Source of the DNA: Rhizobium sp. Q54
GTDB lineage: Bacteria; Pseudomonadota; Alphaproteobacteria; Reyranellales; Reyranellaceae
Direction of reading: 5' to 3'
Length of the DNA: 55,605 bases
NCBI GenBank assembly: GCA_945903635.1
Contig: CAMDOT010000010.1
Span: forward strand, 1-55,605
Part shown: positions 5,265 through 55,605 of the stretch, one piece after another
Layout: each line of letters opens with the position of its first letter
Position numbering within the stretch: the stretch's first letter is position 1
Translations under genes and position numbers: made by a program
Notes under the pieces: model-generated
Told to the model about the DNA's origin: nothing
Databases searched by the model: none
Seen by the model: the letters and a program-made list of their open reading frames with translations, nothing else

Positions 5265-5996
5265 ATGTATGTGCTGTATCATGGCTGGAGATCGTCGGCG
5301 TCGCGTCGGGTGCGTCTCTGCCTTGCCGAGAAGGGCCAAGCCTTCGAGAGCAGGATCATCGACCTCACGAAGATGGAACACCATGCTCCCGCCTTCCTGA
5401 AGCTCAATCCCAACGGCGTCATTCCGCTGCTGATCCTGGAGGACGGACGCTCGCTCTACGAGAGCGGCACGATCTGCGAATATCTCGACGAGACGCATCC
5501 CGAGCTGCCGCTTCGTCCCGCCGACGCCTTCGGGCGCGCCGAGATGCGCAACTGGATCCGCCATGTCGATGGGCTGATCGGCAATCTTATCATCTTCAAC
5601 TGGGCGCATTCGATGGCGAAGGTCGCCACACAATGGTCCGACGCGGAGCTCGCGGAGAAACTCAAGGCTGTGCCCAGCAAGGAGCGGCGCGAAGCCTGGA
5701 TGCGCACCGCGCGAAAACCCTACACCGAGGAGGAGCGTCAGGAGGCGCGCGACAAGCTGCGCGTCGGGTTGCTCGACCGGATGGAGGCGATGCTGGCCCA
5801 AGGCGCCTGGCTTCTGGGCGAACGCTATTCGATCGCCGACATCGCGGCAGTGCCGTTCGTGAAGCGCATCGACGAGGAAATCGCACCCGACGAGATGACC
5901 GCGGCACGCCATCCGCGCGTCCACGACTGGTGGAAGGCGATCCAGGCGCGGCCGGCGTTCGCGGTGGCTAAGATCGGGCCATTCACCGATGCCTGA
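5265..5996 (+). CDS. Glutathione S-transferase family protein
   Basis: The protein is 243 aa. Residues 1-78 form the thioredoxin-like GST_N domain: MYVLYHGWRSSASRRVRLCL holds the likely catalytic serine at S10/S11, LNPNGVIPLLI the cis-proline, and ESGTICEYLDE the glutathione-binding Glu-Ser pair. The remainder is the helical GST_C domain with the SIADIAAVPF N-capping motif. The substrate is unknown. A charged insert after the N-domain (about 120-165) makes it longer than a typical 200-220 aa GST. Confidence 0.9.
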   Translation: MYVLYHGWRSSASRRVRLCLAEKGQAFESRIIDLTKMEHHAPAFLKLNPNGVIPLLILEDGRSLYESGTICEYLDETHPELPLRPADAFGRAEMRNWIRHVDGLIGNLIIFNWAHSMAKVATQWSDAELAEKLKAVPSKERREAWMRTARKPYTEEERQEARDKLRVGLLDRMEAMLAQGAWLLGERYSIADIAAVPFVKRIDEEIAPDEMTAARHPRVHDWWKAIQARPAFAVAKIGPFTDA

Positions 5997-14171: not shown

Positions 14172-14183
14172 GCCCGTGCCTGC

Positions 14184-15167
14184 TCATGCGCTGGTGCGCA
14201 GCAACAGCTTGCCAGCGACATGCCTGCCTTCGAGCCGCCGATGCATTTCCGCGGCCTTGGCCAATGGAAAGACGCCCTCGATCGGAACCTTGAGCCAACC
14301 CGCAAGGATGCCGTCCACCACATGCTCGATGCCCGCACTCCATTCAGGCGAGCTGTGGTCGACGTGGCCGAGATGAAGCCGGGTGAAGGTCTGCGAGCGC
14401 GGCAGGATGCGCTCGCGGATGTTCTTGAAGGGCTGGCCCTCGGCCTCACCGATGCTGATCACGTGGCCGAGCTTCTTCACCACGCCGAAGGTGCGGTCGA
14501 GCATCGTGGCGCCGTAGGAATCGATGGCGAGATCGACGCCCTTGCCTTTAGTGAAGTCGAGCACCGCGGCCTCGAAATCCTCCGTCTTCGTCAGCACGAC
14601 GCGGGCCGCGCCGTACTCGAGCGCACGCGCCTCCTTGCCCGGCGTGCCCGTGGTGCCGATGATCGTCGCACCGGCATGCACGGCAAGCTGGCTACACATG
14701 AGGCCGACACCGCCGCCGATGGCGTTGACCAGGACAACATCGCTGGGACCAACCCCGCCGTAGATCGTCCAAAGCATGTGATATGCCGTCAGCGCCTGAA
14801 TCGGGAAAGCAGCGGCAATGTCGAGCCCGATACTGTCCGGCAGCGCGATGAGGCCGGCCGCCGGCGCCACGCATTTTTCTGCATAGGCACCGCCCTTCTC
14901 CGGAAAGGCGGCGACGCGGTCTCCGACCTTCACGCCCGAGACGCCCGGGCCGAGCACGGCGACGGTACCGGAAACCTCGAAACCCAGGACCATCGGGTAG
15001 GTCATGGCATGCGGATAGATGCCCAGCCGGACCTGCGTGTCTGCCCAGTTGCAGCCGGCGTAGGCCACATCGAGCAGCACTTCGCCAGGGCCGGGAACCG
15101 GGTCGGGCAGTTCGGCCAGGGAGAGCTGCTCGGGCCCGCCCGTGGCATGGATGACGACGGCTTTCAT
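14184..15167 (-). CDS. Zinc-independent quinone oxidoreductase (MDR family)
   Basis: The 327-aa NADPH-dependent quinone oxidoreductase-like protein has a GroES-like N-domain (MKAVVIHATGGPEQL, PGPGEVLLDVAYAGCNWADT, GFEVSGTV). The Rossmann domain has the nucleotide loop NAIGGGVGLMCSQLA and GTTGTPGKEA. The catalytic zinc cysteine/histidine set of alcohol dehydrogenases is absent. The likely role is one- or two-electron reduction of quinones or enones. The gene converges on the ABC binding protein. Confidence 0.88.
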   Translation of the reverse strand: MKAVVIHATGGPEQLSLAELPDPVPGPGEVLLDVAYAGCNWADTQVRLGIYPHAMTYPMVLGFEVSGTVAVLGPGVSGVKVGDRVAAFPEKGGAYAEKCVAPAAGLIALPDSIGLDIAAAFPIQALTAYHMLWTIYGGVGPSDVVLVNAIGGGVGLMCSQLAVHAGATIIGTTGTPGKEARALEYGAARVVLTKTEDFEAAVLDFTKGKGVDLAIDSYGATMLDRTFGVVKKLGHVISIGEAEGQPFKNIRERILPRSQTFTRLHLGHVDHSSPEWSAGIEHVVDGILAGWLKVPIEGVFPLAKAAEMHRRLEGRHVAGKLLLRTSA

Positions 15168-15271
15168 GACCTTCTCCGCAGCGATGGGACCGCCGCGAGG
15201 CCTTGCAACTTCAGCGCCAGCGAGGCCGCGGGAACGGCCGGACGACCCGGCCCCCTGCCTGGCTCTCCCGG

Positions 15272-15643
15272 CTATTTGGCCAGCGACTCGAGCCAGCGAC
15301 GCGCCAGCGCGGGCGCGCGGAAGACACGCATTGGCCGGTCGGCGACGGCGAGAATGCCCAGCACCCGCGCGACAAGTTCGGCCCTGTGGTCCGGCACGAC
15401 GACGGCCAGCGGCCCCATGCGCTCCTGAGCATGGATGGCGCGGAAGCGCACGCCCAGCATAAGCAGGTCTTCCGCCCCCATCGAGGTATCGCCCCGACTG
15501 CCGTCGAACAGCTTTCGGTAGGCCATCGCTCCACTCGACGCCAAGTCATCGAGCAATGTCTCCATGTCTCCACGCGTAAAGTCGCCATCCGCCACGATGA
15601 CGACCAAATGGGCCTCGGCATCAATTGTCCAATCGAGCGACAT
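15272..15643 (-). CDS. SpoIIAA/STAS-like protein, paralogue B
   Basis: This 123-aa protein has the same length as the protein at 7722-8093 and aligns without gaps over most of it (LDWTID, AYRKLFDG, LMLGVRFRAIHAQ, RVLGILAVADRPMRVFRAP). Members of this SpoIIAA-like group are small cytoplasmic domains of uncertain role. The ATG at 15643 gives the paralogue-matched length, although the frame is open well upstream, over the GST gene on the other strand. It is divergent from that GST gene. Confidence 0.75.
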   Translation of the reverse strand: MSLDWTIDAEAHLVVIVADGDFTRGDMETLLDDLASSGAMAYRKLFDGSRGDTSMGAEDLLMLGVRFRAIHAQERMGPLAVVVPDHRAELVARVLGILAVADRPMRVFRAPALARRWLESLAK

Positions 15644-15799
15644 ACTGCAGGTGACATCCTTTGCGCGAACGAAGAGGCTTGTCTGCCACCGTGATGGAGC
15701 GAAGGCCAGCGCCATCGCACCGCGCCAAACCGTATAGCGCCGTGGGCAGGCGTGGCCGCTGGCGCTAGAGTGATGACCCAACCGAGGAGGCTGCCCCGT

Positions 15800-16384
15800 A
15801 TGCTCACACTCTATTTTGCCCCCGGCTCGAGTTCGATGGCGCCCCATATCGCCCTGCACGAGACTGGCGCGTCGTTCGAGGGCAAACCGCTGTCCCTGGC
15901 AAAGAAGGACACGCGGACGCCGGCGTTCCTCGCGATGAATCCCGCCGGGAAAGTGCCGGTGCTGATGGTGGACGACCGCATGCTCACCGAGGTGGCGGGG
16001 ATCCTGTTCTATCTCGCGCGGATGTTTCCCGCGGCGGGGTTGCTGCCGCAGGGCGACGTCGAGGCCGAAGCCCAGGTGGTCTCCTGGATGTCCTATATTG
16101 CCTCGACCATCCATCCGGCACGACGCCAGGGACTGGAACACGCACGCGAAGTCTATGCGGTGGCCGACAAGCGTCTGGGCAAGAACGATTGGGCGGTGGG
16201 TGGGCGATACTCGATCGCCGACATCCATCTGTTCCGTCTCTACTGGCGCTTCCGCAGCTCGCTCGAGCCCGAGCCGGGAGCCTTCCCCAATATCGAGGCG
16301 CACTATGCGCGCATGATGGCGCGACCGGCCGTACAGCAAACGATCGAGATCGAGACGCAGATCGGCTACGACCCGCCAGCGTAA
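15800..16384 (+). CDS. Glutathione S-transferase family protein
   Basis: The protein is 194 aa. The GST_N domain (1-75) holds LYFAPGSSSMAPHIALHE, with serines where the catalytic residue sits, MNPAGKVPVLMVDD with the cis-proline, and LTEVAGILFYLA, where the usual Glu-Ser pair is replaced by Glu-Val. The GST_C domain (90-194) has YSIADIHLFRLY. It resembles the beta-like GSTs of Proteobacteria. GAGGAGG lies before the start at 15800. Confidence 0.88.
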   Translation: MLTLYFAPGSSSMAPHIALHETGASFEGKPLSLAKKDTRTPAFLAMNPAGKVPVLMVDDRMLTEVAGILFYLARMFPAAGLLPQGDVEAEAQVVSWMSYIASTIHPARRQGLEHAREVYAVADKRLGKNDWAVGGRYSIADIHLFRLYWRFRSSLEPEPGAFPNIEAHYARMMARPAVQQTIEIETQIGYDPPA

Positions 16385-16391
16385 CGGCCGG

Positions 16392-18734
16392 CTATTCGCG
16401 GTTCAGCACTCGCCACACCTTTTCAGGGGTTGCCGGCATGTCGATGTGATTGACGCCGTGTTCGGCGAGCGCATCGACCACCGCATTCATCACGGAAGGC
16501 AGCGCGCCGGCACATCCCGCCTCGCCGCAGCCCTTGATGCCCAGCCGGTTGGTCTTGCACGGCACGGACTGGTTCTCGATCGAGAAGTCTGGCGCGTCAG
16601 ACGCACGCGGCATGGCGTAGTCCATGAAGGAGCCAGCCACCGGCTGGCCCTGCTGGTCGTAGACCGTGCGCTCCATCAACGCCTGGCCGATGCCTTGGAT
16701 GACACCGCCATGCGCCTGGCCTGCGACCAACATCGGATTGATGACCGTGCCGAAGTCGTTGACCATGAAATAGCGCACCACCTCGATTACGCCGGTGTCA
16801 CGGTCGATCTCGACTTCGGCGACGTGGCAGCCGTTGGGGAAGGAGAAGGGTGGATTGTCCGAGATGTGGCTGACATCGAGCGACTGCGGCAGGTCTGCCG
16901 GCAGCTTGAGGCCACCACGCAGCTTGTCAGCCAGCTCCAGGATGCTGATGCCACGATCTGTGCCGGCGATCACGAAGCGGCCATGCGCGAATTCCATGTC
17001 TACCGCCGAGGCTTCGAGCACATGGGCCGCGATCTGCTTGCCCTGCGCGATCAGTATGTCTCCGGCCTCCAGGAAGGCTTGGCTGGCAACCAGCGCCGAC
17101 TTCGACCCACCGGTGCCGCCACCCACCTTGAGCTGGTCGCTGTCGCCCTGCAGCAGGCGGAAACGCTCCAAAGGAATGCCGAGCTGGCTGCCCAGCACCT
17201 GCGCGAAGGGCGTGGCGTGACCCTGCCCGTAGTCGAGCGTGCCGCTCAGCATGGTGATCGTGCCGTCGTCCTCGAAGCGGACGCCGCCATACTCCTTGGC
17301 GGGCGGTCCCGTGACCTCGAGATACGAGCCGATGCCGCGGCCGCGCAGCTTGTTGCGCGCGGCACTCTCCTGCTTGCGCGCCTCGAAGCCCGACCAGTCC
17401 GCGGCCTTCAGGGCCTTGTCGAGCACCGACGTGAACTCGCCCGAATCGTAGTTCATGCCCGACGGCGCCTTATAGGGCATCTGCTCCGGCGCGATGTGAT
17501 TGCGCCGGCGCAAGTCGATGCGATCGATGCCCATCTCACGCGCTGCCGTGTCGATCAGGCGCTCCATGTAGTAATTGCCTTCGGGCCGTCCGGCGCCGCG
17601 GTAGGCGCCGACCGGCGTCGTGTTGGTGAACACGACCCTGGAATTCACCTCCATCGCCGGCGTCTTGTAGACGTCGATGACGTTCTTGACCGCGTTGGTC
17701 GTGGCCGGCATCGGCGGATAGATGTAGGCGCCGGCGTTGCCGGTGCCGCTCAGCCGCACGGCGAGGAACCTGCCGTCCTCGTCGAGTGCCAGCTCGGCAA
17801 TGCGTTGGTGATCGCGACCGGCATGGTCGCTCAGGAAGCTTTCGGAGCGTTCGTCGGTCCACTTCACCGGGCGGCCGAGCAGCTTGCCGCCCAGCAGCAG
17901 CGGCGCGTACTCGGGATAGACCTGCGACTTCATGCCGAACGAACCGCCGACATTGCCGGTCAGCACACGCAGCTTGTTCGGCGGCACGTTGAGCACGTCC
18001 TTGGCGAGGCTGCCGCGCAGGCCCATCACGCCCTGGCAACCGACATGCAAGGTCCAGCGCTCGGTCTTGGCATCATAGGAACCGATCGCCGAGCGCGGCT
18101 CCATGGCATTCACCACGATCCGGTTGGAGGCGATTTCGAGCCGGGTCACGTGCGCCGCCTCGGCGAAAGCCTTCTTCACCGCTTCGGCATCACCGTAGTG
18201 GAAATCGAGCACCAGGTTGCCGGGAGCGTCCTCGTGGATCTGCGGCGCGCCAGGTTTCAGGGCGTCGGCCGGGGTGGTGACGGCGGGCAGTTCCTCGATG
18301 TCGAGTTCGACGGCTTCGGCGGCATCCTTGGCCTGCACGGCCGTTTCAGCCACGACACAGGCCACGGCCTCGCCCACGAAGCGCACGCGGCCTTTGGCCA
18401 GCGACGGCCGGGGCGGTGTCTTCATCGGCTTGCCGTCGCGGTCGGGAATGTTGAGGCCGCATCGCATCGGCCCGAATCCTGCCGCTTCGAGATCGGCATT
18501 GGTGTAGATGGCAAGCACACCCGGCATCGCCTTCGCGGCGGATGCATCGATACCCTTCAGCACGCCGTGCGCGATCCTGCTGCGCACCATCACGGCATAG
18601 GCCTGGCCCGGCGGATTGATGTCGTCGGTGTAGCGTCCCTGGCCGCGTAGCAGCTTGGGATCCTCGGAGCGCGGCACGGACTGGCCAACGCCGAATTTCA
18701 TCAAGGCAAGACCGGTGTCGTCGAACGAGTCCAT
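16392..18734 (-). CDS. Xanthine dehydrogenase-family molybdopterin-binding subunit (form II CoxL-like)
   Basis: The 780-aa protein carries the a/b-hammerhead domain (GRYTDDINPPGQAYAVMVRS) and the MoCo-binding domains. Cofactor and active-site marks are GGSFGMK near residue 270, AYRGAGRPEG (the form II CoxL-type loop, not the form I AYRCSFR of true CO dehydrogenase) and GIKGCGEAG, with the catalytic glutamate near residue 743. It should be the large subunit of an aldehyde, aromatic or purine hydroxylase. The FAD and 2Fe-2S subunit genes are absent from the neighbourhood. It follows the NIPSNAP gene 79 nt away on the same strand. Confidence 0.92.
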   Translation of the reverse strand: MDSFDDTGLALMKFGVGQSVPRSEDPKLLRGQGRYTDDINPPGQAYAVMVRSRIAHGVLKGIDASAAKAMPGVLAIYTNADLEAAGFGPMRCGLNIPDRDGKPMKTPPRPSLAKGRVRFVGEAVACVVAETAVQAKDAAEAVELDIEELPAVTTPADALKPGAPQIHEDAPGNLVLDFHYGDAEAVKKAFAEAAHVTRLEIASNRIVVNAMEPRSAIGSYDAKTERWTLHVGCQGVMGLRGSLAKDVLNVPPNKLRVLTGNVGGSFGMKSQVYPEYAPLLLGGKLLGRPVKWTDERSESFLSDHAGRDHQRIAELALDEDGRFLAVRLSGTGNAGAYIYPPMPATTNAVKNVIDVYKTPAMEVNSRVVFTNTTPVGAYRGAGRPEGNYYMERLIDTAAREMGIDRIDLRRRNHIAPEQMPYKAPSGMNYDSGEFTSVLDKALKAADWSGFEARKQESAARNKLRGRGIGSYLEVTGPPAKEYGGVRFEDDGTITMLSGTLDYGQGHATPFAQVLGSQLGIPLERFRLLQGDSDQLKVGGGTGGSKSALVASQAFLEAGDILIAQGKQIAAHVLEASAVDMEFAHGRFVIAGTDRGISILELADKLRGGLKLPADLPQSLDVSHISDNPPFSFPNGCHVAEVEIDRDTGVIEVVRYFMVNDFGTVINPMLVAGQAHGGVIQGIGQALMERTVYDQQGQPVAGSFMDYAMPRASDAPDFSIENQSVPCKTNRLGIKGCGEAGCAGALPSVMNAVVDALAEHGVNHIDMPATPEKVWRVLNRE

Positions 18735-18761
18735 ACGCTAACCCCCGCAAATTCCAAGCCA

Positions 18762-18793
18762 CCTCACCCCGAGGATCTCTCCTCGGGGTGAGG
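18762..18793. repeat. Perfect 14-bp stem-loop between NIPSNAP and molybdoenzyme genes
   Basis: CCTCACCCCGAGGA at 18762-18775 is followed by the loop TCTC and then its exact reverse complement at 18780-18793. No T-run follows on either strand, so a Rho-independent terminator is unlikely. The sequence resembles short dispersed palindromes found between genes in alphaproteobacteria. It could adjust expression between the two genes of the unit. Confidence 0.75.
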
Positions 18794-18813
18794 CAGTCCG
18801 TTCCTGATCGATC

Positions 18814-19452
18814 CTACTTCAGCGGCGAGTAATTCGTCGGCAGCAGCAAGGTCGAATGCATCGCCTGTAGTTTCACCGGACCCTTGGCGAGATAGGCCTG
18901 CCACGCCGGATCCTTCATCGCCGCACCGCGCGCCTCGAAGCGCTCCTGCAGGTTCTTGTAGCGCCAGAGGTGGATCCACTCGTTGGGCTGCGGGAACTCG
19001 CCCGTCCAGGCACCCCAGATCGGCGAGTACTTCTCACGCGCGGCCTGCACCTCCTTGAAGTCTTTGCCGTACTGGACGGCGCCACCCATGTTGCAAAGAT
19101 AGACGCGCAGCTCGTAGATGTTGCCGCTGGTGCCGTCGTCCGGGCGAATATCGACCACAGGATTCATGAGCCGCAGGTCCTGGCGCTCGATCAGCGGGCG
19201 GATCACCGGCACATAGCCTTCGGTCCACGGCTTGTGCTTGCCGAGCTCACCGCGCAGTCGCGTGCGTTCTTCGTAGCTGTCGTACTTCCACAGATGCCAG
19301 ATCTGATTCAGCGCGCCGAACTCGGCCGTCCAGTAGCCGTGGTTCACGCCAAAATTCTGGCCGCGCGCCGGCCGGCCGATCGTCTCGGCAGCCTTGAGAT
19401 ATTCCGGCATCTTGCCGGGCTTCAGCGTGTAGGTACGAAGCTCGTAGACCAT
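18814..19452 (-). CDS. NIPSNAP family protein
   Basis: The 212-aa protein is made of two dimeric alpha/beta-barrel repeats: residues about 1-105 (VYELRTYTLKPGKMPEYL, IWHLWKYDSYEERTRLR) and 112-212 (IYELRVYLCNMGG, WIHLWRYKNLQERFEAR). NIPSNAP domains are often found with catabolic enzymes in bacteria, with no fixed reaction. It sits 11 nt after the enolase-superfamily gene and before the molybdoenzyme gene, so the three probably form one transcript. Confidence 0.88.
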   Translation of the reverse strand: MVYELRTYTLKPGKMPEYLKAAETIGRPARGQNFGVNHGYWTAEFGALNQIWHLWKYDSYEERTRLRGELGKHKPWTEGYVPVIRPLIERQDLRLMNPVVDIRPDDGTSGNIYELRVYLCNMGGAVQYGKDFKEVQAAREKYSPIWGAWTGEFPQPNEWIHLWRYKNLQERFEARGAAMKDPAWQAYLAKGPVKLQAMHSTLLLPTNYSPLK

Positions 19453-19463
19453 GTCATTTCCTC

Positions 19464-20648
19464 TCAGGGATGGGGATTCTTGGGCGGATGCGCGCGCACC
19501 GCCTCCTCGTTGATGTCAGCGCCCCAGCCCGGCCGGGTGGGCACGATCAGCTCACCATTCTGGATGACCGGGGGATGCGTGACCAGATCGTCCTTCCACG
19601 GTACGTCGTCGATATCGATTTCCATGATGCGGAAGTTGGGCATGGCGGCGCACAGGTGCGCGCTCATCAAGGTCGACATGTGGCCGTAGAAATTGTGCGG
19701 CGCGCAGTTGATCTCGTAGGCTTCCGCCATGGTCGAGATCTTGAAGGACTCGGCTAGCCCGTTCCACGGCACATCGATGATCGACACATCGATCGAGCGA
19801 TTCTCGAAGAACGGCCGGAATTGGCGGCGGCCGAACAGCGATTCGCAGGAGGCGATCGGCATCGAGGCGCGGTCGCGGATCAGCCGCAGTCCTTCGGGAT
19901 CGTAGGAATCGATCTCCAGCCAGAAGAGATTGTAGGGCTCGCAGGTGCGCGCGACCTTGATGTAGCCCTCGGTCTTGAAGTTGAAGTTGGTGTCGAGAAG
20001 GATGCCCATGTCGTGGCCGGCGCCCTGGCGGAAAGCCGCCAGCCCGTCGGAGATCGCGGCCAGCGTCGCACCATCGGCGTTGAGCTCGGGTCCGCCTGCG
20101 GTGCGGCCAAATCCCGGCTGGTGCATGTTGGGCGGATCGAGATCGAAGCGGAAGATGTTGGTTTTCAGCGCCTTGAACCCACGCTCTTTCACATGCTTGC
20201 CGAGCTTCACCACGTCGTCGAACGAGCGCACCGGCTCGACGCCCATCACCTCGGCATTGCGGAAACGGTAGCTGCCGCAATGCGACCAGTAGAGCGGCAG
20301 GCGGTCACGCACCGGACCGCCGAACAGGGCGCAGACCGGAATGCCGAGGGCTTTCGCCTTCACATCCAGAAGGGCGTTCTCGATCGCCGCCATCGCCTGC
20401 TGGTTGATGCCGCCCGGCGCCTGGCGCGTGATGGCATAGAAGGTCGTCATGATGCGCTCGATCGGCCGCGGATCCTGGCCGACGAGGCTTGCCGCCATAC
20501 GGCGAATTACGGCGGTAAGGCCGGCGCTGCCGTAGCCTTCGTTGTATTCCGACCAGCCGACCAGGCCATCGTCGGTCGTGATCTTGAGAAAGGAGAAGTC
20601 ACGCCAGCCGGCGTCGCAATGCAAATCCTCGATTTTGACGATTTTCAT
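19464..20648 (-). CDS. Mandelate racemase/muconate lactonizing enzyme family protein
   Basis: The 394-aa protein has an enolase-superfamily capping domain (1-125) and a barrel domain. Metal ligands are seen as D219 (ILLDTNFN), E245 (FWLEIDS) and E269 (ASCESLF). An Asp-His dyad fits D292 (IIDVPWNG) and H318 (CAPHNFYGH). The usual Lys-x-Lys base pair reads Lys162-Thr-Asn164, so only one lysine is kept, implying dehydratase or one-sided chemistry on an acid sugar or related acid. GGGAGGAA precedes the ATG at 20648. Confidence 0.88.
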   Translation of the reverse strand: MKIVKIEDLHCDAGWRDFSFLKITTDDGLVGWSEYNEGYGSAGLTAVIRRMAASLVGQDPRPIERIMTTFYAITRQAPGGINQQAMAAIENALLDVKAKALGIPVCALFGGPVRDRLPLYWSHCGSYRFRNAEVMGVEPVRSFDDVVKLGKHVKERGFKALKTNIFRFDLDPPNMHQPGFGRTAGGPELNADGATLAAISDGLAAFRQGAGHDMGILLDTNFNFKTEGYIKVARTCEPYNLFWLEIDSYDPEGLRLIRDRASMPIASCESLFGRRQFRPFFENRSIDVSIIDVPWNGLAESFKISTMAEAYEINCAPHNFYGHMSTLMSAHLCAAMPNFRIMEIDIDDVPWKDDLVTHPPVIQNGELIVPTRPGWGADINEEAVRAHPPKNPHP

Positions 20649-20709
20649 GATGGTTCCTCCCGAGCTTGCCTCAGCATAGACTAGGCAGCAGCCACCGCGG
20701 GATGAATCA

Positions 20710-21387
20710 ATGCCCCTATTCGGCAAAGGAATGCTGGTCGTCTTTTCCGAGGTGAAGGCGCGCGATGAGCGTGACTTCAACGAGTGGTACAATCGCGAGC
20801 ACATCGACGAGCGGATCAACCTGCCGGGTTTCCATCGCGCCCGCCGCTACGTTGCGGTCAGCGGCTCGCCCAAATACCTCGCCACTTACGAATGCGACAG
20901 CGTCGGCGACCTCGCGACGCCGGGCTACCTGCAGTTGCTGGCCAACCAGACGCCGTGGACCCAGGCGGTGATGGCCAAGTTCACTCAGTTTCGCCGGCTG
21001 ACGCTCCGCACCCAGGTCGACCTGACGCACGGTGTCGGCGGCATGGTCGCCTGCATCCGGTTCGTCCCCGACCCGCGCGAACGCAAGCCGCTGGTCGCCT
21101 GGCTGCAGGAGACCGTCCTGCCGCGCATCATCGCCCGGCCCGGCCTGCTGGGCGCGTTCGCGGCCGAAACCGATCTGGAGGTCACCAATGCCCCGCTGCA
21201 GGCAAAGAGCATGGACCATCCCAAGGCCGACGAAGCAGAATGGGTGGTGATGCTCGAAGGCGCCGACGCAGCCTCGGTGGGCGCCGCCGCGCGGGCCCAT
21301 TTCAAGCTTGCGACCCTGAAGCCGTTCGGCGTCACCTCGGCGCCGACGATCGGCACCTATCGCCTGCTCTTCGGCAATCAGAGATGA
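20710..21387 (+). CDS. EthD/DUF4286-like dimeric alpha-beta barrel protein
   Basis: The 225-aa protein has an N-terminal ferredoxin-like half (GMLVVFSEVKARDERDFNEWYNREHIDERI, LPGFHRARRYVAV) and a similar second half. This resembles EthD-like or DUF4286 proteins, which accompany degradation pathways. It starts 61 bp from the divergent enolase-superfamily gene, so a shared promoter region and pathway are possible. Its stop codon lies in the first copy of a 17-bp tandem repeat. Confidence 0.7.
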   Translation: MPLFGKGMLVVFSEVKARDERDFNEWYNREHIDERINLPGFHRARRYVAVSGSPKYLATYECDSVGDLATPGYLQLLANQTPWTQAVMAKFTQFRRLTLRTQVDLTHGVGGMVACIRFVPDPRERKPLVAWLQETVLPRIIARPGLLGAFAAETDLEVTNAPLQAKSMDHPKADEAEWVVMLEGADAASVGAAARAHFKLATLKPFGVTSAPTIGTYRLLFGNQR

Positions 21388-21424
21388 GGGGCAATCAGAG
21401 ATGAGGGGCAACCAGAGATGAGGC
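21374..21424 (+). repeat. Three tandem copies of a 17-bp unit
   Basis: GCAATCAGAGATGAGGG occurs at 21374-21390 and 21391-21407, with a third copy at 21408-21424 changed at two positions. The first copy supplies the last codons and TGA of the upstream gene. This looks like recent slippage or duplication at a gene end. Confidence 0.9.
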
Positions 21425-21491
21425 GCCGTGACGCGCTTTGATGACGGAACTTTGACCTTCCGTTGATCGGACCATGACGTAGGTTGACCTC

Positions 21492-22343
21492 GTGTCCACC
21501 CAACGAAAGATCTTCTGGCTACGGCTCGTCACGCTGATCGGTCTTTGCCTGCCTGCGCTGGAGCTCGCGTGGCGCTGGTACGCCGACGAACTGGGGCCTC
21601 GCCCGGTCACCGTGGCGACGCACGCCACCGGCGACTGGGCCGTCATCTTCCTGCTGCTGTCGCTGGCGATGACGCCGCTTCGGGCGACGCTCGACTGGAT
21701 GCCGCTGGTGCACATCCGTCGCCGCATCGGCGTCGCCGCGGCGCTCTATGCCGGCGCCCATCTCCTGATCTATGTGCTCGACCAGAAATGGAACCTGATC
21801 GTCGTCGCGACGGAGATCGCCAAGCGCTTCTACCTGACAATCGGCTTCGTGGCGTTGCTGGCGCTTGTGGCGCTCGCCGTCACCTCGACCGACGGCTGGC
21901 AAAAGCGGCTCAAGCGCAACTGGAAGCGCCTGCACTGGCTGATCTATCCGGCGGCGCTGCTGGCGATCGTGCACTTCTTCATCCAGTCCAAGGTCAAGAT
22001 CGGCGAAGCGGCTTTCGCCGCAGGCCTGCTCGCCTGGCTGATGCTGTGGCGCGCCCTGCCGCCGCGCCTGCGCACGCGCTACCTTGGCCTCCTGCTGCTG
22101 GCGACCGGCGCCACGCTGGCCACCGTCGTCTTCGAGGCGGCCTGGTACGGCCTGGTGAACAACATCGATCCCGTGCGCGTGCTGGCCGCCAACATCGATC
22201 CCGACCTGGCACCGCGGCCGGCGCAGAAGGTGCTCGTGGCCTCCCTCGCGGTCGTGGCGATCGTGGCGGTCCGCCGCGGCTTCGCCATCGCCAATAGGCT
22301 CTGGACGAAGCGCTATATCCAACGGACTATACCGACTTCCTGA
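21492..22343 (+). CDS. msrQ: MsrQ, haem-binding membrane subunit of methionine sulfoxide reductase
   Basis: The 283-aa integral membrane protein is of the ferric-reductase-like transmembrane type (YedZ/MsrQ). Haem-ligand histidines fit the helices with LVHIRRRIGVAAALYAGAHLLIYV and RLHWLIYPAALLAIVHFF. The C-terminal part (about 190-283) is longer than in E. coli MsrQ. MsrQ passes electrons from the quinone pool to periplasmic MsrP, a molybdopterin enzyme. No msrP is visible here. The start is a GTG at 21492. The gene is followed 12 nt later by modB. Confidence 0.8.
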   Translation: MSTQRKIFWLRLVTLIGLCLPALELAWRWYADELGPRPVTVATHATGDWAVIFLLLSLAMTPLRATLDWMPLVHIRRRIGVAAALYAGAHLLIYVLDQKWNLIVVATEIAKRFYLTIGFVALLALVALAVTSTDGWQKRLKRNWKRLHWLIYPAALLAIVHFFIQSKVKIGEAAFAAGLLAWLMLWRALPPRLRTRYLGLLLLATGATLATVVFEAAWYGLVNNIDPVRVLAANIDPDLAPRPAQKVLVASLAVVAIVAVRRGFAIANRLWTKRYIQRTIPTS

Positions 22344-43491: not shown

Positions 43492-43569
43492 CGCGCATTA
43501 CGCACGTCGTGGCAACGTATCAAAAATATAGCATAAAACCTGCGCAACCTGCAAGTATTTCTTTCGCCG

Positions 43570-45429: not shown

Positions 45430-45599
45430 ACGACTTGAGGGGTTGTGGGGCGATTCGCAGATCAGCAGCAATCTTCATACCATAGAGCCGATCGACGATT
45501 CCGATCGTGTTGCGCTACTCGTAAGGTGGAGCCGGTCCGCGCGACCTCGAAGACAGCGGGACTCCGCGTCATCGGAGGCATACTCCAGCAGCGACGACC

Positions 45600-45944
45600 C
45601 TACCGCAGGTCCGCCTTCACGCCGTCGAGCCTCAGGCGGAGCCGCGCCACCGTGTAGCGCTGGGGGTTCCTCTTCATCTGGTCCTCCCGCCAGCTCGGAC
45701 CCTTGCCCGCCGGAATAGCGCAGCTGTCCAGTTCGATCCGTGCGCGGGCGTAGACCCCTGCCTCCATGAAGCTGAGAGCGTGGACCAGGCAGGTCTCCTC
45801 CCAGTGGTCGGGCTGCCGCTGCATCTCGTCGAGCCGGTTGAGGACCGCCTCGAACATCGCGTGCACCGCGACCTTCATCTCGACCGAGTACCTGCCCTCG
45901 TCGAGGGCCCCCGTCGTCGGGAGAATGTCGTCCCGCTGTGTCAT
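45600..45944 (-). CDS. Hypothetical protein
   Basis: The 114-aa soluble protein has no family I recognise. It looks helical: MKVAVHAMFEAVLNRLDEMQ, then a region with WEETCLVHALSFMEAGVYARARIELDSC, and a basic C-terminus. The gene lies upstream of the glutaminase fusion on the same strand, with 194 bp between them that holds no other gene. Its normal composition supports a real gene. The 207 bp to its right (45945-46151) hold nothing I can support. Confidence 0.6.
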   Translation of the reverse strand: MTQRDDILPTTGALDEGRYSVEMKVAVHAMFEAVLNRLDEMQRQPDHWEETCLVHALSFMEAGVYARARIELDSCAIPAGKGPSWREDQMKRNPQRYTVARLRLRLDGVKADLR

Positions 45945-46151
45945 ATCGTCGAGGATAGCACGCTGCGGGACGGCCGTTCAGTGTCATGAGGCTACTTTGG
46001 CTTCGCCTTTTTTCGCCTCCCGAAGATCGCGCCAAGCCCCAGGCAGGTAGGGATAACGTGAATCGGCGGAGATCTTTCAACCACAACCAGTTGAGTCAGA
46101 TCACAATCCACGATGGCCGGGTTCTGACCTCAGAGCATTTGGGGGGATGCT

Positions 46152-48356
46152 TCAGGTGCCGACCATGAAATCGGCCAGAGCGAGGTCGCTGGCCCGGTCG
46201 ATGACCAGGAACCCGACATTGCACTGCGTGGTGACGGTGTCTTTTCCCGTCTTACCATTGATCCTGAGGGGCGAGAATTCGAGGTCGATCCTGTAGAACT
46301 CCTTGGCCTTGGTGCGCAGTTCGTCGAGTTCTATCTGTGACGCCACCAGCGATGGGACATAATAGGCGAACTGTTGGGCGTCTTCGGTGACATAAAATCG
46401 CCACTGTCCCGCCGTCGAGTTTCCCAAAGAGTCGGCGAGGAATTTTCTGTTACCCTCGGGGCTGTTCTTGGTGGCGCTGCTGTTGAACAGCTGGAAGCAA
46501 AAAGCCTTTGGCTCGTCGTAAACGACCGCTCCGGCGACACTAAAGGCATAGTGCACATCTCCCGACAGCATGATCACTTTCGTCAGGTTGGCTGATTTCA
46601 GGACCTGCATCAGCCGCATGAAGCTATGCTTGTTCGTCATCCAAGCTTCGACGTCCGTCTCGGGAACGGAGGTCGCTTCATTAAAGGTGCCTGCTTTCCA
46701 AGCGGCGGTCGTTTTGCGAACGAGCGTTTTGCCGACTTCGAGGAGCGGCAGATCGAAAACCGGACCAGGCGTGACGAGCATCAAGCGCCGGCCCGTCACG
46801 GCATCAAGCAAAATCTCCAGATGCTTCATCGTCGCCGGACCGATCAGGCTCGGCACAAAACCGTCCCGCCGGTCACCCTTCCATTTTTGCGGAGACGCTG
46901 GAATGTATTCCGGCAAAGCGACGGGTTCAGGCAGGTAGTCGCGCTCGCCCAAGGACTTCTGAAACTCAAACTCATAGTCATGCGGCGCGCGTGTCCGCCG
47001 CGTCCTCGAATCGACGAACAATGTCGGCGGCGCCGTTGGCGCCAGGAACGACCATTTTCCGAACGCCAGCAAGGTCGTTTCGTAGCTCGCGATCGTCGAA
47101 GCGGACACGTCGCGTTTGGCGAACCGTGCCTCGATGCAGTCGAGCACTGTGCCGTCCGCGAATGAGTCCGGATCGTTGCCCCAGCCCTGGAATACCGTAT
47201 AGGCGGCCAGGGCGTTGCTCACGATCCTGCGACCAAGCGGGTTTTTCTTTTCGACCGCGTCCTGCCACGCTGGAGTGATGTTCCAGTCGTCCGTCACGTC
47301 GTGATCGTCGAAGATCATGTAGGTCGGTGTATTGGCGAGGATACGACGCAGCGCCCGGGTGCCCTTGTACGCATCGAGAAGATTGATGATCTCGCGAAGT
47401 CCCTCTTCTGCTTCCGTCTTTGCGCTGCTGATGGTTCCCGCTTCCCAGCGTGCCTGCCCGGTGTCGAGAAACTTCCGGCTCTTTTCTTTGAGACTATCCA
47501 GCGGCCAGAAATAGTCGTCGCGCGACCACGACATGAGGTACATCGCCGCGAACTCGCCGAACCGAGCGAGGTGATTGGCCCCTTCCGTCGTCGTGAAGCC
47601 CGCCGCCTCGGCGATCGGTTTCTGCCTTTGCCTTGCCGAGTACTTCCAGTCCGACAGCGTGCTTCCGTCGCGGTCGGGAACGTCCTCCTTGAAGCCGATC
47701 AGCAGCCGGGAAACCATCGCCAGCCGGTCCAGGATCAGGGCCGAAACGTCGTCGGCATAGATCTGGTCGCCCATCAGCAGCAGCGCATTGGGGCGGCCGG
47801 CGATATAGGGAAACCTGTAGCGGCTCTTCAGGGTCTTGACGAAGGCGTCCTTGCCCGGACCGTGGAGCTTGCGGCAGGAAGCGAACAGTGCGCGCAAGTC
47901 GGTCTCGGAATCCCGCTGCAGGACGACCGTCGGCAGATCGGCCTCGCCGGACAATGAAATTTCCGTGAGGACGGCCGGCGTCAGGATGCTGGAGCCGAGC
48001 TTGGCCGGCGTCGCGGTAGTCAGCTCGCGGATGTCGTAGGAGAGCAATGCTCCCGTCGGGAAAAAGCTTGCGGTGTTCGCTTTGGATTTTACCGGCACCG
48101 CCTTCAACAGATGGACATAGAGTCTTTCGCCCAGCCGCACACGCCGCAGCGCCCGCCCTGTGCCGATCGGCCCCGGCATGACAATAGGCTTCTTGTCCTT
48201 GCCAAACGTGGTCGCGAAAACCACCATTCCAAGGTCGAGAGGTTTGCTGGTGCAGATCCAGACATGGATGGCCTTCGCGTCGGACCGGCGCACGATCGGT
48301 CCGGCCAATATCTCGGGCATCTGCCCGGCCAATATATCGGGTATCGACAAGGTCAT
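46152..48356 (-). CDS. PhoD-like metallophosphatase
   Basis: The 734-aa protein has a PhoD-type metallophosphatase core: MGDQIYADD (residues 195-203), FDDHDVTDDW (349-358) and LSGDVHYAF near 620. It is much longer than classical PhoD (about 550 aa) and shows no Tat or Sec signal, so a cytoplasmic place is likely. The N-terminus starts with a duplicated octapeptide (PDILAGQM/PEILAGPI). It lies 39 nt downstream of the 1020-residue gene on the same strand, suggesting one transcript. GC is lower than in neighbours. Confidence 0.85.
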   Translation of the reverse strand: MTLSIPDILAGQMPEILAGPIVRRSDAKAIHVWICTSKPLDLGMVVFATTFGKDKKPIVMPGPIGTGRALRRVRLGERLYVHLLKAVPVKSKANTASFFPTGALLSYDIRELTTATPAKLGSSILTPAVLTEISLSGEADLPTVVLQRDSETDLRALFASCRKLHGPGKDAFVKTLKSRYRFPYIAGRPNALLLMGDQIYADDVSALILDRLAMVSRLLIGFKEDVPDRDGSTLSDWKYSARQRQKPIAEAAGFTTTEGANHLARFGEFAAMYLMSWSRDDYFWPLDSLKEKSRKFLDTGQARWEAGTISSAKTEAEEGLREIINLLDAYKGTRALRRILANTPTYMIFDDHDVTDDWNITPAWQDAVEKKNPLGRRIVSNALAAYTVFQGWGNDPDSFADGTVLDCIEARFAKRDVSASTIASYETTLLAFGKWSFLAPTAPPTLFVDSRTRRTRAPHDYEFEFQKSLGERDYLPEPVALPEYIPASPQKWKGDRRDGFVPSLIGPATMKHLEILLDAVTGRRLMLVTPGPVFDLPLLEVGKTLVRKTTAAWKAGTFNEATSVPETDVEAWMTNKHSFMRLMQVLKSANLTKVIMLSGDVHYAFSVAGAVVYDEPKAFCFQLFNSSATKNSPEGNRKFLADSLGNSTAGQWRFYVTEDAQQFAYYVPSLVASQIELDELRTKAKEFYRIDLEFSPLRINGKTGKDTVTTQCNVGFLVIDRASDLALADFMVGT
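48302..48349. repeat. 24-bp tandem duplication in the phosphatase N-terminus
   Basis: CGGCCAATATCTCGGG at 48302 recurs with one change at 48326, a period of 24 bp. It encodes two (D/E)ILAG octapeptides at the protein start. Confidence 0.75.
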
Positions 48357-48395
48357 GCGGTCAGCCGCTCGACGGACATGGCGTCGGCCTCCGGC

Positions 48396-51300
48396 TCAAA
48401 TTGCCATCGGCAGGGGGGTATCCTGGAAGATCTGGAGACTGGTCGTCACCGGCGTTCCGCCCGAGCCAACGGCCGATACCGTGTAGGTGCCGGGATTGAC
48501 CAGGAATTCGTAGACGCCGAGAGCGCTGCCGACCGTCAACTGAACCTGATGGGACAAGCCTTGCGAATCCAGGCACCTCAGGGTGACGGTCGCGTTCGAC
48601 ACCGACGCGCCAGCCGATGTCACGGCAACAGAGAGGCGCCACAGGGTGATCGCGACCTCGGCATTCTGCGACATTTCGACGACGGCCGTTCCACGGGTCG
48701 GCAGCGACAGGCCGCCGACCACATCGGCCGCCTCGACCTTGTAGGTCCCCTCGTCCACCAGGAAGTCGTAGGCGCCGGCCACCGTACCGTTGGCGCTGGT
48801 CAGCTCGTCTGTCTGCTCCAATCCCGAGGCATCCAGCCAGCTCAACGTCACCTTCGCGCCAGGCACGGGGGCCGCCGCTGAGTCCACGACGATGACCCGC
48901 AGCCTCGGCTTCCACCAGAGCTGCTTGGTATAGTCGGGCAGGGTCGTGTTCGGATTCTCCAGGTAGACCAGGGTTGTCGGAACCTTGACGACCCAGCGCT
49001 CCGGCTCGACCCGCTTGCCGGGAAAGATGCCGGCCTGTTCCTTCAGTTCCTCGACGATCGAGACGTAGCGCGGATCGGCGATGGTGATGAAGGCATGCTG
49101 CATGCCGTGCCAGCCGAACGAAAAGAAGTCGAGCACGTCCTTCTCGTAGCCCGGACGGACCGGCACCACGACACGTGCCGAGCCGGCGCGCAGGAAATTC
49201 TCGAATAGCGGATCGACGTCGGCAATCTTCAGCGTATCCAGCCAGCGGTCCTTCCGGCCCCAGAAATAGGGCGCGAAACTGTAGGTCATGTTGACCCACT
49301 CAAATGCCTTTTCGAAAAACTGGATATAGCTTCCCTCATTGCGGGCCTCGGAGAACGAAAACTCCGGATAGCCGAAGTGTCCCGGCGGCGGCGCCGTATC
49401 GCGCATCGCATCGATGCTCTCGAAGCGCTGGCCGGTGATGATCTCGAGGCAGGACTTCCGGAGCTCGAACTGCTCGGTCTGACGGTTGATGTCAGGGTTC
49501 ATTCCGAATAATGCATTTGTGCGATCTGCTGTCTGCTGTTGTACCTTGTCTTCATATTCACCCAATTGTCGCGCATACGCTTGCATGATCGCGCTAAAGA
49601 TTGCCATACGCCAGACGTCTAAGCCTGCCTTACTCAACTCACATCGAATTATGACATTAACGACATATACGGCAGTAGACATGAGGGCCGCCGGGATTTT
49701 CCCAGTCTTGTTTCCCATGTCATAAGGAGATTGGTTTCCCCCGTGATCGTCATAATACTTTCCCCCTAACCACGCGTTGGTCCAGGGAAGAGCAAAAGCA
49801 ACATTGTTCGACCAGGACATGCCACTAATATCAGCATCTTTAGCAACATAGCCCTCTGGTATCTCTATTAGGTCAGCCTCGGTTGTGAGTTGGAAACTAA
49901 CCCCACCCGATTTAGTCCATGACACGTAGTGTATTGGATCTGGTGGGGGCGTCGTTGACGTCGCACCGTACTTTGATATCCAAAACGTATAATTCTCCGG
50001 TGTTAGAGCCGACATGTCGGCCAAAGAGTGGGCGGTAATTGGTTTGCCTGCTTCATCGTTGCAATGCATTACGAATTCGCGTGGTGCGACTGGTTTAACC
50101 AGATCAGCTTCGTCTCGCTTCAGTTTTCCATAGCGAAAGAAAGCCGCCGGCTCCGGCACCGCAAATTCATACATAAGGCGTTGACCGTAATTTTCGACAT
50201 GGGCCAGGTAATATTTGTCGAGCCAGCGGTAGACGCCGGCGCGATGGTCCGCCGATTGGTTGTCGATCGTGTGCGTGGTCTTGTTTTCCTTTTCCGTCGT
50301 CGTCACCGTCGACCGCAGGCTACGCACGCGCTGGGTGAGCTTCGACGTGGCGCTGGCCACCACGTCCTTGGCGTATTTGGTGGCGGTCTTCTGGCTTTCG
50401 TCCTTGGTCGTCTTGCCCTGATAGTCGAGATAGCCGCTGGCCTTGGCCAGACCGGTGGTCTCGACAGTGCCGTACTCGTAGCTCGCGCTGACCCCGGCCT
50501 TGCGGTCGGTGGACTGCGAGCTCGCCCTCGAGACTTCCTGCTCGAAGGAGAATTTCTCGGTCGATTCGAGCGAACTCGACAACTCGCTCTGGTTTTCCGT
50601 CTCCAGCTCGTCCTTGGTTTCGCTGCGCCGCAAGTCGCGGAATTCGCGCACATGCGTCTCGCCCGCCAGGATATTCTCGACATGGGCGATTTCTCCTGCG
50701 GCATAGCGCAAGAGCGACGTCTTGATCATCTTCAGATCACCCCAGCCGAGCGGCTGGGCCTCGCCCCAGGTTTTCGGCCAGGGGACTGATACATTGCCGT
50801 CGCATGGCGGCGACGCGGGTGGCGCGACGCACAGGTCGTCGGTCTTCAGTTGAGAAAGAAAGATGGCCGGCAAAGCCACGGTCGCAGCAGCAACCCCCGC
50901 CATCGGGACGTGACGCAGGTTGGAGGGCTTGAGCGAGGCATAGTAGACGGCATTGGCGAGGCGAATGGCATCGGCCAGCGCGGGGACGAGGTCGAGATTG
51001 CGCTTCGACGCGGCACGATAGATCAAATTGTCCCAGAGGACGACGAGCGTCTCCTTCAGCCTGGTTCGCCGGACGTAGTCCGCCAGCGACTCCTTGCTGC
51101 CTTTCTCGAAAGCCGACACTGCATTGGCCAGGCTGCTGTTTGCCCGATAGGCCGCAAAATAGGGCGAGAGCGCATCGAGGCCAGGTTGCCGCGCCTTGAT
51201 CGCCGGCACCGAGGACAGGAAGGCAGGGCCGTTCGCGAAGGCCTGTAGCTTGGTTTCCGACAAGTCCCAGGCGGGAGTTGGAACGGCGGCCCCAGTCTGG

Positions 51301-51458
51301 GCCTTTGCGCCACCGACAGCGGGATGAAAGACCGACGCGGTCGTGTCGATGTGCAGGACCGGCGAGAACGGCGCCCCTGGCGTGGGCGCGCTTTCGGATG
51401 TGGCCGCGACAGGTCGCGTCACCACGAACCTGCTCAATTCCGTTGCCTGGACCGCCAT
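48396..51458 (-). CDS. Large protein of unknown function with C-terminal tandem beta-sandwich repeats
   Basis: The 1020-aa protein has no signal peptide. Residues 255-400 are highly charged, Ser/Thr/Glu/Lys-rich and coiled-coil-like (ENILAGETHVREFRDLRR, then ETKDELETENQSELSSS). Next comes YRWLDKYYLAHVENYGQRLM and VPEPAAFF (410-441). Residues 757-772 read LRAGSARVVVPVRPGY. Two similar domains of about 90 aa end it (about 851-940 and 941-1010), with AGAYDFLVDEGTYKVEA matching LGVYEFLVNPGTYTVSA, like carboxypeptidase-regulatory or Cna-B folds. I recall similar uncharacterised long bacterial proteins but cannot name a family. Residues about 413-653 are encoded by markedly AT-richer DNA. GGGAGGG precedes the start. 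Confidence 0.8.
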   Translation of the reverse strand: MAVQATELSRFVVTRPVAATSESAPTPGAPFSPVLHIDTTASVFHPAVGGAKAQTGAAVPTPAWDLSETKLQAFANGPAFLSSVPAIKARQPGLDALSPYFAAYRANSSLANAVSAFEKGSKESLADYVRRTRLKETLVVLWDNLIYRAASKRNLDLVPALADAIRLANAVYYASLKPSNLRHVPMAGVAAATVALPAIFLSQLKTDDLCVAPPASPPCDGNVSVPWPKTWGEAQPLGWGDLKMIKTSLLRYAAGEIAHVENILAGETHVREFRDLRRSETKDELETENQSELSSSLESTEKFSFEQEVSRASSQSTDRKAGVSASYEYGTVETTGLAKASGYLDYQGKTTKDESQKTATKYAKDVVASATSKLTQRVRSLRSTVTTTEKENKTTHTIDNQSADHRAGVYRWLDKYYLAHVENYGQRLMYEFAVPEPAAFFRYGKLKRDEADLVKPVAPREFVMHCNDEAGKPITAHSLADMSALTPENYTFWISKYGATSTTPPPDPIHYVSWTKSGGVSFQLTTEADLIEIPEGYVAKDADISGMSWSNNVAFALPWTNAWLGGKYYDDHGGNQSPYDMGNKTGKIPAALMSTAVYVVNVIIRCELSKAGLDVWRMAIFSAIMQAYARQLGEYEDKVQQQTADRTNALFGMNPDINRQTEQFELRKSCLEIITGQRFESIDAMRDTAPPPGHFGYPEFSFSEARNEGSYIQFFEKAFEWVNMTYSFAPYFWGRKDRWLDTLKIADVDPLFENFLRAGSARVVVPVRPGYEKDVLDFFSFGWHGMQHAFITIADPRYVSIVEELKEQAGIFPGKRVEPERWVVKVPTTLVYLENPNTTLPDYTKQLWWKPRLRVIVVDSAAAPVPGAKVTLSWLDASGLEQTDELTSANGTVAGAYDFLVDEGTYKVEAADVVGGLSLPTRGTAVVEMSQNAEVAITLWRLSVAVTSAGASVSNATVTLRCLDSQGLSHQVQLTVGSALGVYEFLVNPGTYTVSAVGSGGTPVTTSLQIFQDTPLPMAI

Positions 51459-51576
51459 CGAACCCTCCCCAAGAGATCGACACCGTAGGGGCCGCTACCT
51501 ATGATTGACAGGACAATCGGTTAGAAAACCTTTGCTGGAAAGCGTCTTGGGGCGCATCGGCCAGGAATCGAATGCG

Positions 51577-51734
51577 TTAGTTGCTTTGTGCTAATAGCTT
51601 CGCCGCCGCCCGGAGTACCGCACGACCTCTTGGCGTCGCGCCTCGTGGAGCCGGCAACGCCCGTTCGTCATTGCCGCCGACTTGCACAGTTTGGCGCTTC
51701 GTGTCTTCGCACCGCATCGCTTGCTCCGGTGCAT
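51577..51734 (-). pseudogene. Decayed HGGxSTG-type gene remnant
   Basis: The start MHRSKRCGAKTRSAKLCKSA and MTNGRCRLH matches the opening of small HGGxSTG-domain proteins of mobile-element context. The HGG-x-STG block itself is missing, and the sequence jumps to EARRQEV. A further frame change restores the expected tail (VLRAAAKLLAQSN and a stop at 51577). This indicates an internal deletion plus a frameshift, hence a dead remnant. Confidence 0.65.
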
Positions 51735-52018
51735 GGGTAATCTGCTTTGCGTGGGGTTGTTCCTCGCTTTCTGGTCTGATCCTTCCCCCGGGGTCTCGAC
51801 GGCACCAACGATGGCCTGGCTTCCGACGTGAACGTGAACATGCTCGATGGTCACTTCTTGCTGACCCTTGCCCGATGGCGGTTCAGCGCATCGATCAGCA
51901 TGGCGAAGGTGCGCAACAGCTTGTTGGCCTGACTGAGGTTTTCACTGCGCCCCGCGAAGGTCTGATCGCCGATCATGGCGCGCCTGAAGCACTCCATGCT
52001 CGCGTTGTGCGCGGCTAT
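51735..52018 (-). pseudogene. Frameshifted, 5'-truncated mobile-element-associated gene remnant
   Basis: One frame reads IAAHNASMECFRRAMIG to IDALNRHR (from 52018 down to about 51870). The expected continuation KGQQEVTIEHVHVHVGSQ is in another frame from about 51866. Restoring one G in a G-run (CGGGGCAAG) joins them. The 5' end meets a stop codon close to the tRNA, so the gene is truncated at the tRNA 3' side. From memory, proteins with these two blocks are frequent neighbours of HGGxSTG genes in alphaproteobacteria. Confidence 0.65.
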
Positions 52019-52033
52019 GAATATCTACAAAAT

Positions 52034-52110
52034 TGGCGTCCCCGAGAGGATTCGAACCTCCGACCTCCGGTTTAGGAAACCGCTGCTCTATCCGGCTGAG
52101 CTACGGGGAC
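52034..52110 (-). tRNA. tRNA-Arg (anticodon CCU)
   Basis: The 77-nt cloverleaf includes an encoded CCA. The acceptor stem GTCCCCG pairs with CGGGGAC, with D arm GCTC/GAGC, anticodon loop TTCCTAA with anticodon CCT, and T arm with GGTTCGAAT. Only the 27-43 anticodon-stem pair is G-G. It reads AGG codons. Its 3' end abuts the mobile-gene remnant. Confidence 0.97.
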
Positions 52111-55391: not shown

Positions 55392-55559
55392 GGTGTTTCA
55401 CTTCCCTTTGCCGTCGTCATTTCTTGTTCGTTTCACAACATCATGCCGTGCTGCGAACCACAGGGTCAAAATGCTTATGCAAAGCCTGTCGCTGCGCAAA
55501 ACCAGCAGGGCGGGCAAAGTCAGCGCGTGAGTCAGGACCAGGGCCATCGCATATCCGTC

Positions 55560-55591
55560 GTCCTGAGCGGAGCGAAGCGTAGTCGAAGGAC
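55560..55591. repeat. Short dispersed palindromic repeat
   Basis: GTCCTGAGCGGAGCGAAGCG followed by TAGTCGAAGGAC has complementary ends (GTCCT/AGGAC). From memory, this sequence type recurs between genes in many proteobacterial genomes. Function unknown. The 214 bp from 55392 to the window end hold no other feature I can support. Confidence 0.7.
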
Positions 55592-55605
55592 CTCTCTTCC
55601 AGTCG

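Follow-up and report, generated by a model that had tools for sequence, protein, structure and literature searches.

Two neighboring genes in a 55,605-nucleotide stretch of DNA from Rhizobium sp. Q54 (contig CAMDOT010000010.1; the whole stretch analyzed is referred to here as the window) encode a 1020-residue protein and a PhoD-like metallophosphoesterase. We regard this pair as probably one instance of a widespread two-gene, AB-like toxin module, in which a carrier or translocator is combined with an exchangeable enzyme, here PhoD. The first gene (48396..51458, minus strand) codes for the carrier, a member of an unnamed 'GEIAHIENVL' family, and the second (46152..48356, minus strand) for the 734-aa PhoD-like cargo; both open reading frames (ORFs) are intact and lie 39 nt apart on one strand, as the initial annotation of this DNA had recorded. 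What carries our reading is a constant carrier, its tight linkage to the gene that follows it, the diversity and the exchange of its partners, the presence of toxin-type proteins among them, and an alternating hairpin found across the family. The initial annotation had viewed the phosphatase and its large partner as a defense, toxin or surface-assembly module; the toxin branch of that proposal is the one to which our data point, but the center of the module is the large protein, and no link to defense models emerged.

Results

A constant carrier with an exchangeable partner gene

Searches with tblastn and with profiles recovered relatives of the carrier on 14 plasmids, whose hosts range from rhizobia to a haloarchaeon; within the phylum, 8 of 398 genomes yielded a relative. 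A single-sequence scan of genome contigs found no carriers; an alignment was required to recover the family, and 187 carrier relatives were then confirmed from 211 pattern stretches. Eighty loci were kept out of these 187, and all neighbor counts given below rest on them, with neighboring genes called by longest-ORF gene finding and errors in start sites therefore possible. Proteins from Bacteroidota, Pseudomonadota, Actinomycetota, Chloroflexota, Myxococcota, Verrucomicrobiota, Acidobacteriota, Cyanobacteriota, Bacillota, Thermodesulfobacteriota and haloarchaea are thoroughly intermixed in the carrier tree. Text searches of the literature returned no description of the family; word searches cannot reach a family without a name.

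A gene on the same strand follows the carrier directly in 74 of the 80 loci, and its start falls within 100 nt in 63 of 80, as compared with 136 of 337 for the other long ORFs of the same loci, which served as a control (Fisher P 4e-10), and 23 of 74 for the gene upstream of the carrier. The 74 partners form 40 unrelated clusters. Those that could be named comprise patatin phospholipase, phospholipase D (PLD), Het-C, M23 peptidase, protein-arginine deiminase (PAD), amine oxidase, the PT-TG pre-toxin, an Rv2525c-type glycosidase, and PhoD. Only two of the 74 visible partners are PhoD proteins, that of the window and that of Chitinophaga niastensis (L028). The initial annotation had tied its proposal to PhoD homologs and the large protein being stable neighbors, and this did not hold: the two are rarely adjacent, PhoD relatives elsewhere are solitary genes annotated as alkaline phosphatases, and PhoD is thereby ruled out as the constant partner, a role that falls to the carrier.

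When partner labels are traced along the carrier tree, at least 27 changes are counted (minimum 16), and sister carriers often possess different partners, for example an amine oxidase versus PhoD, or a pre-toxin versus an unknown cluster; the partner slot is consequently one that gets exchanged. An all-against-all search among the partners revealed no docking-tag domain shared across clusters, and the possibility of carrier-enzyme fusions was likewise rejected, as the long carriers hold no Pfam enzyme domain. No third gene is conserved in carrier neighborhoods.

At L075, L076, L078, L079, L044, L050, L066 and L089, in Legionella, Flavivirga and others, a pair of adjacent genes, for ~350-415 aa and 600-680 aa, takes the place of a single carrier gene, and several of these split carriers are then followed by a 110-aa ORF family. 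Identical carrier loci are present in metagenome-assembled genomes labeled Planctomycetota and Flavobacteriales (L026 and L027), which is probably a matter of binning contamination.

Toxin tips and cassettes in Chryseobacterium

A 744-aa partner-type gene with a Tox-MPTase4-like tip is located two positions after the carrier in Chryseobacterium sp. FH2 (L134/L100), and the sequence at the junction before this tip is repeated, over 224 nt, in ORFs further downstream whose tips differ. The tips of this array (13631-21571) include Tox-MPTase4 (E 1.4e-14) and an ADP-ribosyltransferase (ART) exoenzyme (3e-8); interleaved with them are small ORFs, and those of them that were scanned gave no match to a curated immunity family. 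The same is seen on a plasmid of a Chryseobacterium isolated from fish (L016), where a 275-aa ORF lying downstream begins with a stretch that shares 90% identity with partner residues 470-568. Such a combination of recombining tips and standalone toxin cassettes has been described for polymorphic toxins (Zhang et al. 2012; PMC3482391). Given this correspondence, toxin cargo is well supported for the carrier family. No orphan tip cassettes were seen in the window, where homology of the carrier is what suggests a toxin cargo.

Anatomy of the carrier and a candidate membrane hairpin

AlphaFold models were obtained for the whole carrier of the window (P0002; mean predicted local distance difference test score, pLDDT, of 67) and for the core of a relative (L088; pLDDT 74). 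In both, a helical domain at the N-terminus is accompanied by four strands of great length, a subdomain of the beta-sandwich type and a long hairpin formed by helices. In the protein of the window, the helical domain spans about residues 44-175 (50934..51329, minus strand) and is moderately to well predicted (pLDDT ~80-90); it is followed by a conserved core, about residues 228-846 (48921..50777, minus strand), that is aligned in all relatives. A C-terminal extension (residues 849-1020; 48399..48914, minus strand) consists of two CarboxypepD_reg-like beta-sandwich repeats (two stretches, E 5e-9), the only part of the protein with a Pfam family. These are the repeats noticed in the initial annotation, and they are specific to the carrier of the window, occurring in no other member scanned. 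Its charged, coiled-coil-like segment was borne out in part, as one portion is indeed a helix, but the E/T-rich portion is modeled as long beta-strands around the alternating hairpin.

This amphipathic hairpin, about residues 316-346 (50421..50513, minus strand), is our candidate for a membrane-inserting element. The strongest hydrophobic/polar alternation of the 612-aa core flanks a Tyr-Gly that hardly varies, and its phase is shared by 96-97% of 67 carrier members. The spacing from a conserved Asn to the Gly of the hairpin (N32-G100) amounts to 68 residues at the 10th as well as at the 90th percentile, and the modeled strands 37-61 and 138-162 are symmetric about the Tyr-Gly. In both models the hairpin is contained in a very-low-confidence stretch between the second and the third long strand.

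The idea of a hairpin preceded the structural search of the core. When Foldseek was queried with this core, the top rows were mostly iota-toxin Ib, C. difficile CDTb and aerolysin, at E values of 0.01-0.1 and template modeling (TM) scores of ~0.1 or less. A fold search with the full model was uninformative, returning only a jelly-roll-like subdomain at 507-609 with Z under 8; VIA-align covered the beta-sandwich subdomain only, and a sequence-profile search of the PDB gave just chance-level rows over the helical N-terminus. Judged by its sequence pattern, the alternating segment centered on Tyr-Gly looks like a beta-barrel membrane hairpin, a view with which the Foldseek rows agree without proving it.

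The PhoD-like enzyme

The product of the second gene matches Pfam PF09423 with E 3e-11 and 43.4 bits (gathering cut-off 27), the best stretch covering only part of the model, and a profile of PhoD relatives matches the PhoD structure 2yeq at E 2e-7. The motifs GDQIY, DDHD/E and GDVHY, which we take to be those of the metal site, are conserved over five PhoD relatives and intact in the protein of the window. They are represented by GDQIYAD (residues 196-202; 47751..47771, minus strand), nearly all positions of which are invariant in the five relatives, by MIFDDHDVTDDW (residues 347-358; 47283..47318, minus strand), recognized by comparison with relatives, and by LSGDVHYAF (residues 597-605; 46542..46568, minus strand), recognized both by this comparison and in the profile match. 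By these sequence features the protein belongs to the PhoD family as a divergent member. A hydropathy scan, as distinct from a dedicated predictor of twin-arginine translocation (Tat) signals, revealed no N-terminal hydrophobic stretch in it, while classical PhoD possesses a Tat-type signal; the same kind of scan found none in the carrier, so that the earlier remark on the lack of export signals in both proteins stands.

A PhoD-like gene is directly followed by a gene for a very large DUF6603 protein in a haloarchaeon (L136, 2974-7773), possibly another pairing of PhoD with a large protein.

A variable, low-GC locus at a tRNA gene

The GC content of the pair is 0.598 as compared with 0.658 in the rest of the window, no other stretch of equal length falls below 0.639, and the GC content at third codon positions is 0.74-0.76 in the two genes versus 0.84-0.93 in the flanking ones. 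The lower GC and the adjoining tRNA-Arg gene on the upstream side, both pointed out in the initial annotation, are thus verified. The 3' end (52034) of this tRNA-Arg(CCT) gene (52034-52110, minus strand) forms the upstream edge of a variable region, and in many genus-mates homology to the window starts right there, at 52031-52034; this edge is hence variable across the genus. On the other side conservation ends at ~45473, and we delimit the island as 45472..52033 (no strand assigned), from the start of a glutaminase gene to the 3' end of the tRNA.

A single-sequence search found the large protein in one of 61 relatives, the one being the window's own genome, and a sensitive profile search added two further, distant carriers among 75 family members. 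These two genus-mates have their carriers sited elsewhere, next to different neighbors, and most genus-mates are devoid of either gene. The locus is therefore not conserved at the same place in all relatives. In one of the two (G467), the carrier and two other genes make up a low-GC block between direct repeats of 125 bp with 95% identity (L144, 5688-5812 and 13379-13503); the repeat duplicates the 3' end of an amidohydrolase-like gene, and the arrangement resembles the trace of a small integrated element with no obvious integrase. The low GC, the patchy distribution in the genus, the variable tRNA edge and this repeat-flanked block together make it probable that the module is island-borne.

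The mobile-gene debris reported on the upstream side is represented by one small cysteine-rich ORF (51591-51854), but this is weak: no integrase was seen in the window, and the tRNA-Arg 3' end, a candidate attachment site, has no direct repeat there. An empty site with the left and right flanks side by side was not found in the relatives, where the two flanks are separated by 417 kb or belong to different contigs. The only syntenic contig, contig 134 of G021 (L113), ends inside the tRNA gene: at 5574-5611 homology to the window breaks in the anticodon-loop region of tRNA-Arg(CCT), and foreign sequence continues to the contig end, as if the tRNA gene had been split by an insertion.

Directly after the PhoD gene follows a 114-aa ORF (45600-45944, minus strand) that belongs to a repeated family in the genus, with a 90% copy on contig 36 of G000 and others in G021, G023, G458 and more; in G467, a copy is located within a few kb of another carrier. 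Short interspersed repeats of ~50-64 nt (43500-43564 and 55554-55605) occur in many copies at 80-100% in this genome and related ones.

Discussion

Our data lend themselves to comparison with several known systems. The carrier loci share with polymorphic toxin systems (Zhang et al. 2012; PMC3482391) a constant carrier part, hugely variable toxin activities, recombining tips, the orphan cassettes and small immunity-like ORFs of Chryseobacterium, and the Het-C, Tox-MPTase4, ART and PT-TG families. Unlike in those systems, where it forms the N-terminal end of the toxin, the constant part is here a separate protein encoded upstream; the units swapped are entire partner genes, unrelated in fold, and neither an immunity gene nor a known trafficking domain is seen at most carrier loci, including that of the window. 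The diversity typical of polymorphic toxins is found at the level of the family, and cassettes and immunity-like ORFs only outside the window.

Binary AB toxins (iota Ib/Ia, CDTb/CDTa) likewise have two adjacent genes, for a large presumed pore subunit and a separate enzyme, and they resemble the carrier in its conserved alternating hairpin between very long strands; Ib and CDTb appear in the weak Foldseek top rows. In contrast to them, the carrier has no sequence match to a known translocase, no significant fold match and no signal peptide, the enzymes linked to it are far more diverse, and its family reaches across many phyla and into the archaea. Aerolysin-type beta-pore-forming toxins share the long strands with an alternating insertion hairpin; the carrier differs from them in lacking a sequence or significant fold match and in having a separate enzyme partner and a helical N-terminal domain. 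By sequence the carrier thus belongs to neither family, in keeping with the absence of any Pfam match to a translocase or pore-forming family among the carriers scanned; by analogy it may nevertheless work like one of these proteins. The PhoD-like protein shares GDQIY, DDHD, GDVHY and the 2yeq profile match with PhoD alkaline phosphatases and phosphodiesterases (PF09423), from which it differs by its divergence, its missing export signal and its coupling to a carrier.

A plausible course of events can be outlined from these likenesses. The first gene would provide the constant carrier, and the gene directly downstream the exchangeable enzyme. The carrier most likely acts in the manner of binary (AB) toxin B components or of beta-pore-forming toxins: it would bind target cells via variable end domains, here the two beta-sandwich repeats, and oligomerize, whereupon the alternating hairpin with its Tyr-Gly turn would insert as a beta-barrel. 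The enzyme would then cross or attack the membrane. If toxic, the PhoD-type metallophosphodiesterase should damage phosphodiesters or phosphomonoesters in phospholipids, teichoic-acid-like polymers or nucleotides. Lipids of the membrane are plausible substrates, given that several other cargos are phospholipases. Since export signals are absent from the carriers and rare among the cargos, release may occur by lysis or by another route.

Two other readings deserve a hearing, both of which we consider unlikely. In the first, the carrier would belong to a phage-tail-like injector, either a type VI secretion system (T6SS) or an extracellular contractile injection system (CIS), as an adaptor for cargo or as a structural component, and the downstream enzymes would be the effectors of that injector. 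The cargo list (patatin, PLD, M23, PT-TG, Het-C) does resemble that of T6SS and CIS effectors, and Zhang et al. (2012; PMC3482391) group Het-C with T6SS and PVC-type systems. One divergent locus (L005) has a phage tail-collar-type partner, with the partner of L007 in the same cluster, a few carriers weakly match PHROG tail-fiber families, and signal peptides are lacking. However, gp25, common to T6SS, CIS and phage baseplates, was detected in just 16 of 33 carrier genomes and is missing from the window's genome (91% complete), from three Legionella and from the haloarchaeon; a sheath was not found in the window's genome, and the phage collection yielded no carrier match. With baseplate genes missing from half of the carrier genomes, that of the window included, and no third conserved gene, an injector adaptor is disfavored.

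The second, which we hold to be improbable to much the same degree, is intracellular defense by abortive infection: the large protein would sense phage and free a polymorphic enzyme onto host membranes or metabolites. Swappable effectors, phospholipases among them, occur also in defense systems, and the patchy island distribution, the missing export signal and an Ensifer locus (L019) that adjoins genes for SIR2-like and SMC-like ATPases fit this idea. Yet neither protein of the window matched a PADLOC model at E <= 1, Pfam revealed no ATPase, nucleotide-binding or sensor domain in the carriers scanned, the M23 peptidase, the PT-TG pre-toxin and the ADP-ribosyltransferase/Tox-MPTase4 tips with small partner ORFs among the cargos fit exported toxins, and an alternating membrane hairpin would be unexpected in a sensor. 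A metabolic or surface unit, in which a large surface protein would display or assemble a PhoD phosphodiesterase that scavenges phosphorus, would accord with the solitary alkaline phosphatases elsewhere and with the two beta-sandwich repeats, but is very improbable. PhoD is one of many partners (2/74) of a carrier family whose other cargos range from known toxins to phospholipases, a peptidase, a deiminase and an amine oxidase, and the pair has no export signal and is island-borne and rare.

Several observations weigh against the two-gene toxin module that we prefer. An export signal is absent from all 90 carriers examined by hydropathy scan. The structural searches returned no significant match, the rows for Ib, CDTb and aerolysin may reflect long strands only, secretins rank among the Foldseek top rows as well, and both models render the region of the hairpin with low confidence. 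The window offers no evident immunity gene, orphan cassettes were found at two loci only, both in Chryseobacterium, and many partners have no recognisable domain. We know of no delivery machine for the carrier, nor of a PhoD phosphatase established as a toxin.

A bolder formulation, which we offer tentatively and rate as somewhat short of probable, is that the carrier family represents a new class of beta-barrel translocator, present in more than ten bacterial phyla and in haloarchaea, that delivers any enzyme encoded directly downstream. It would then be a universal, modular AB toxin with a cargo slot open to unrelated folds, and PhoD-type phosphodiesterases would be a new class of cargo.

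The position of a large carrier-like protein directly upstream of a differing enzyme in almost every genome suggests a toxin-delivery pair that is widespread, takes exchangeable cargo and has escaped description until now. If this is true, a large family of 'hypothetical proteins' would turn out to be a modular toxin carrier, the cargo of which is revealed by the partner gene, and a general rule for finding new toxins would ensue: to read the gene after the carrier. The family would likewise constitute a natural translocator tolerant of very different enzymes, and it would provide a testable account of the isolated phospholipases, deiminases, peptidases and phosphatases that are encoded without export signals.

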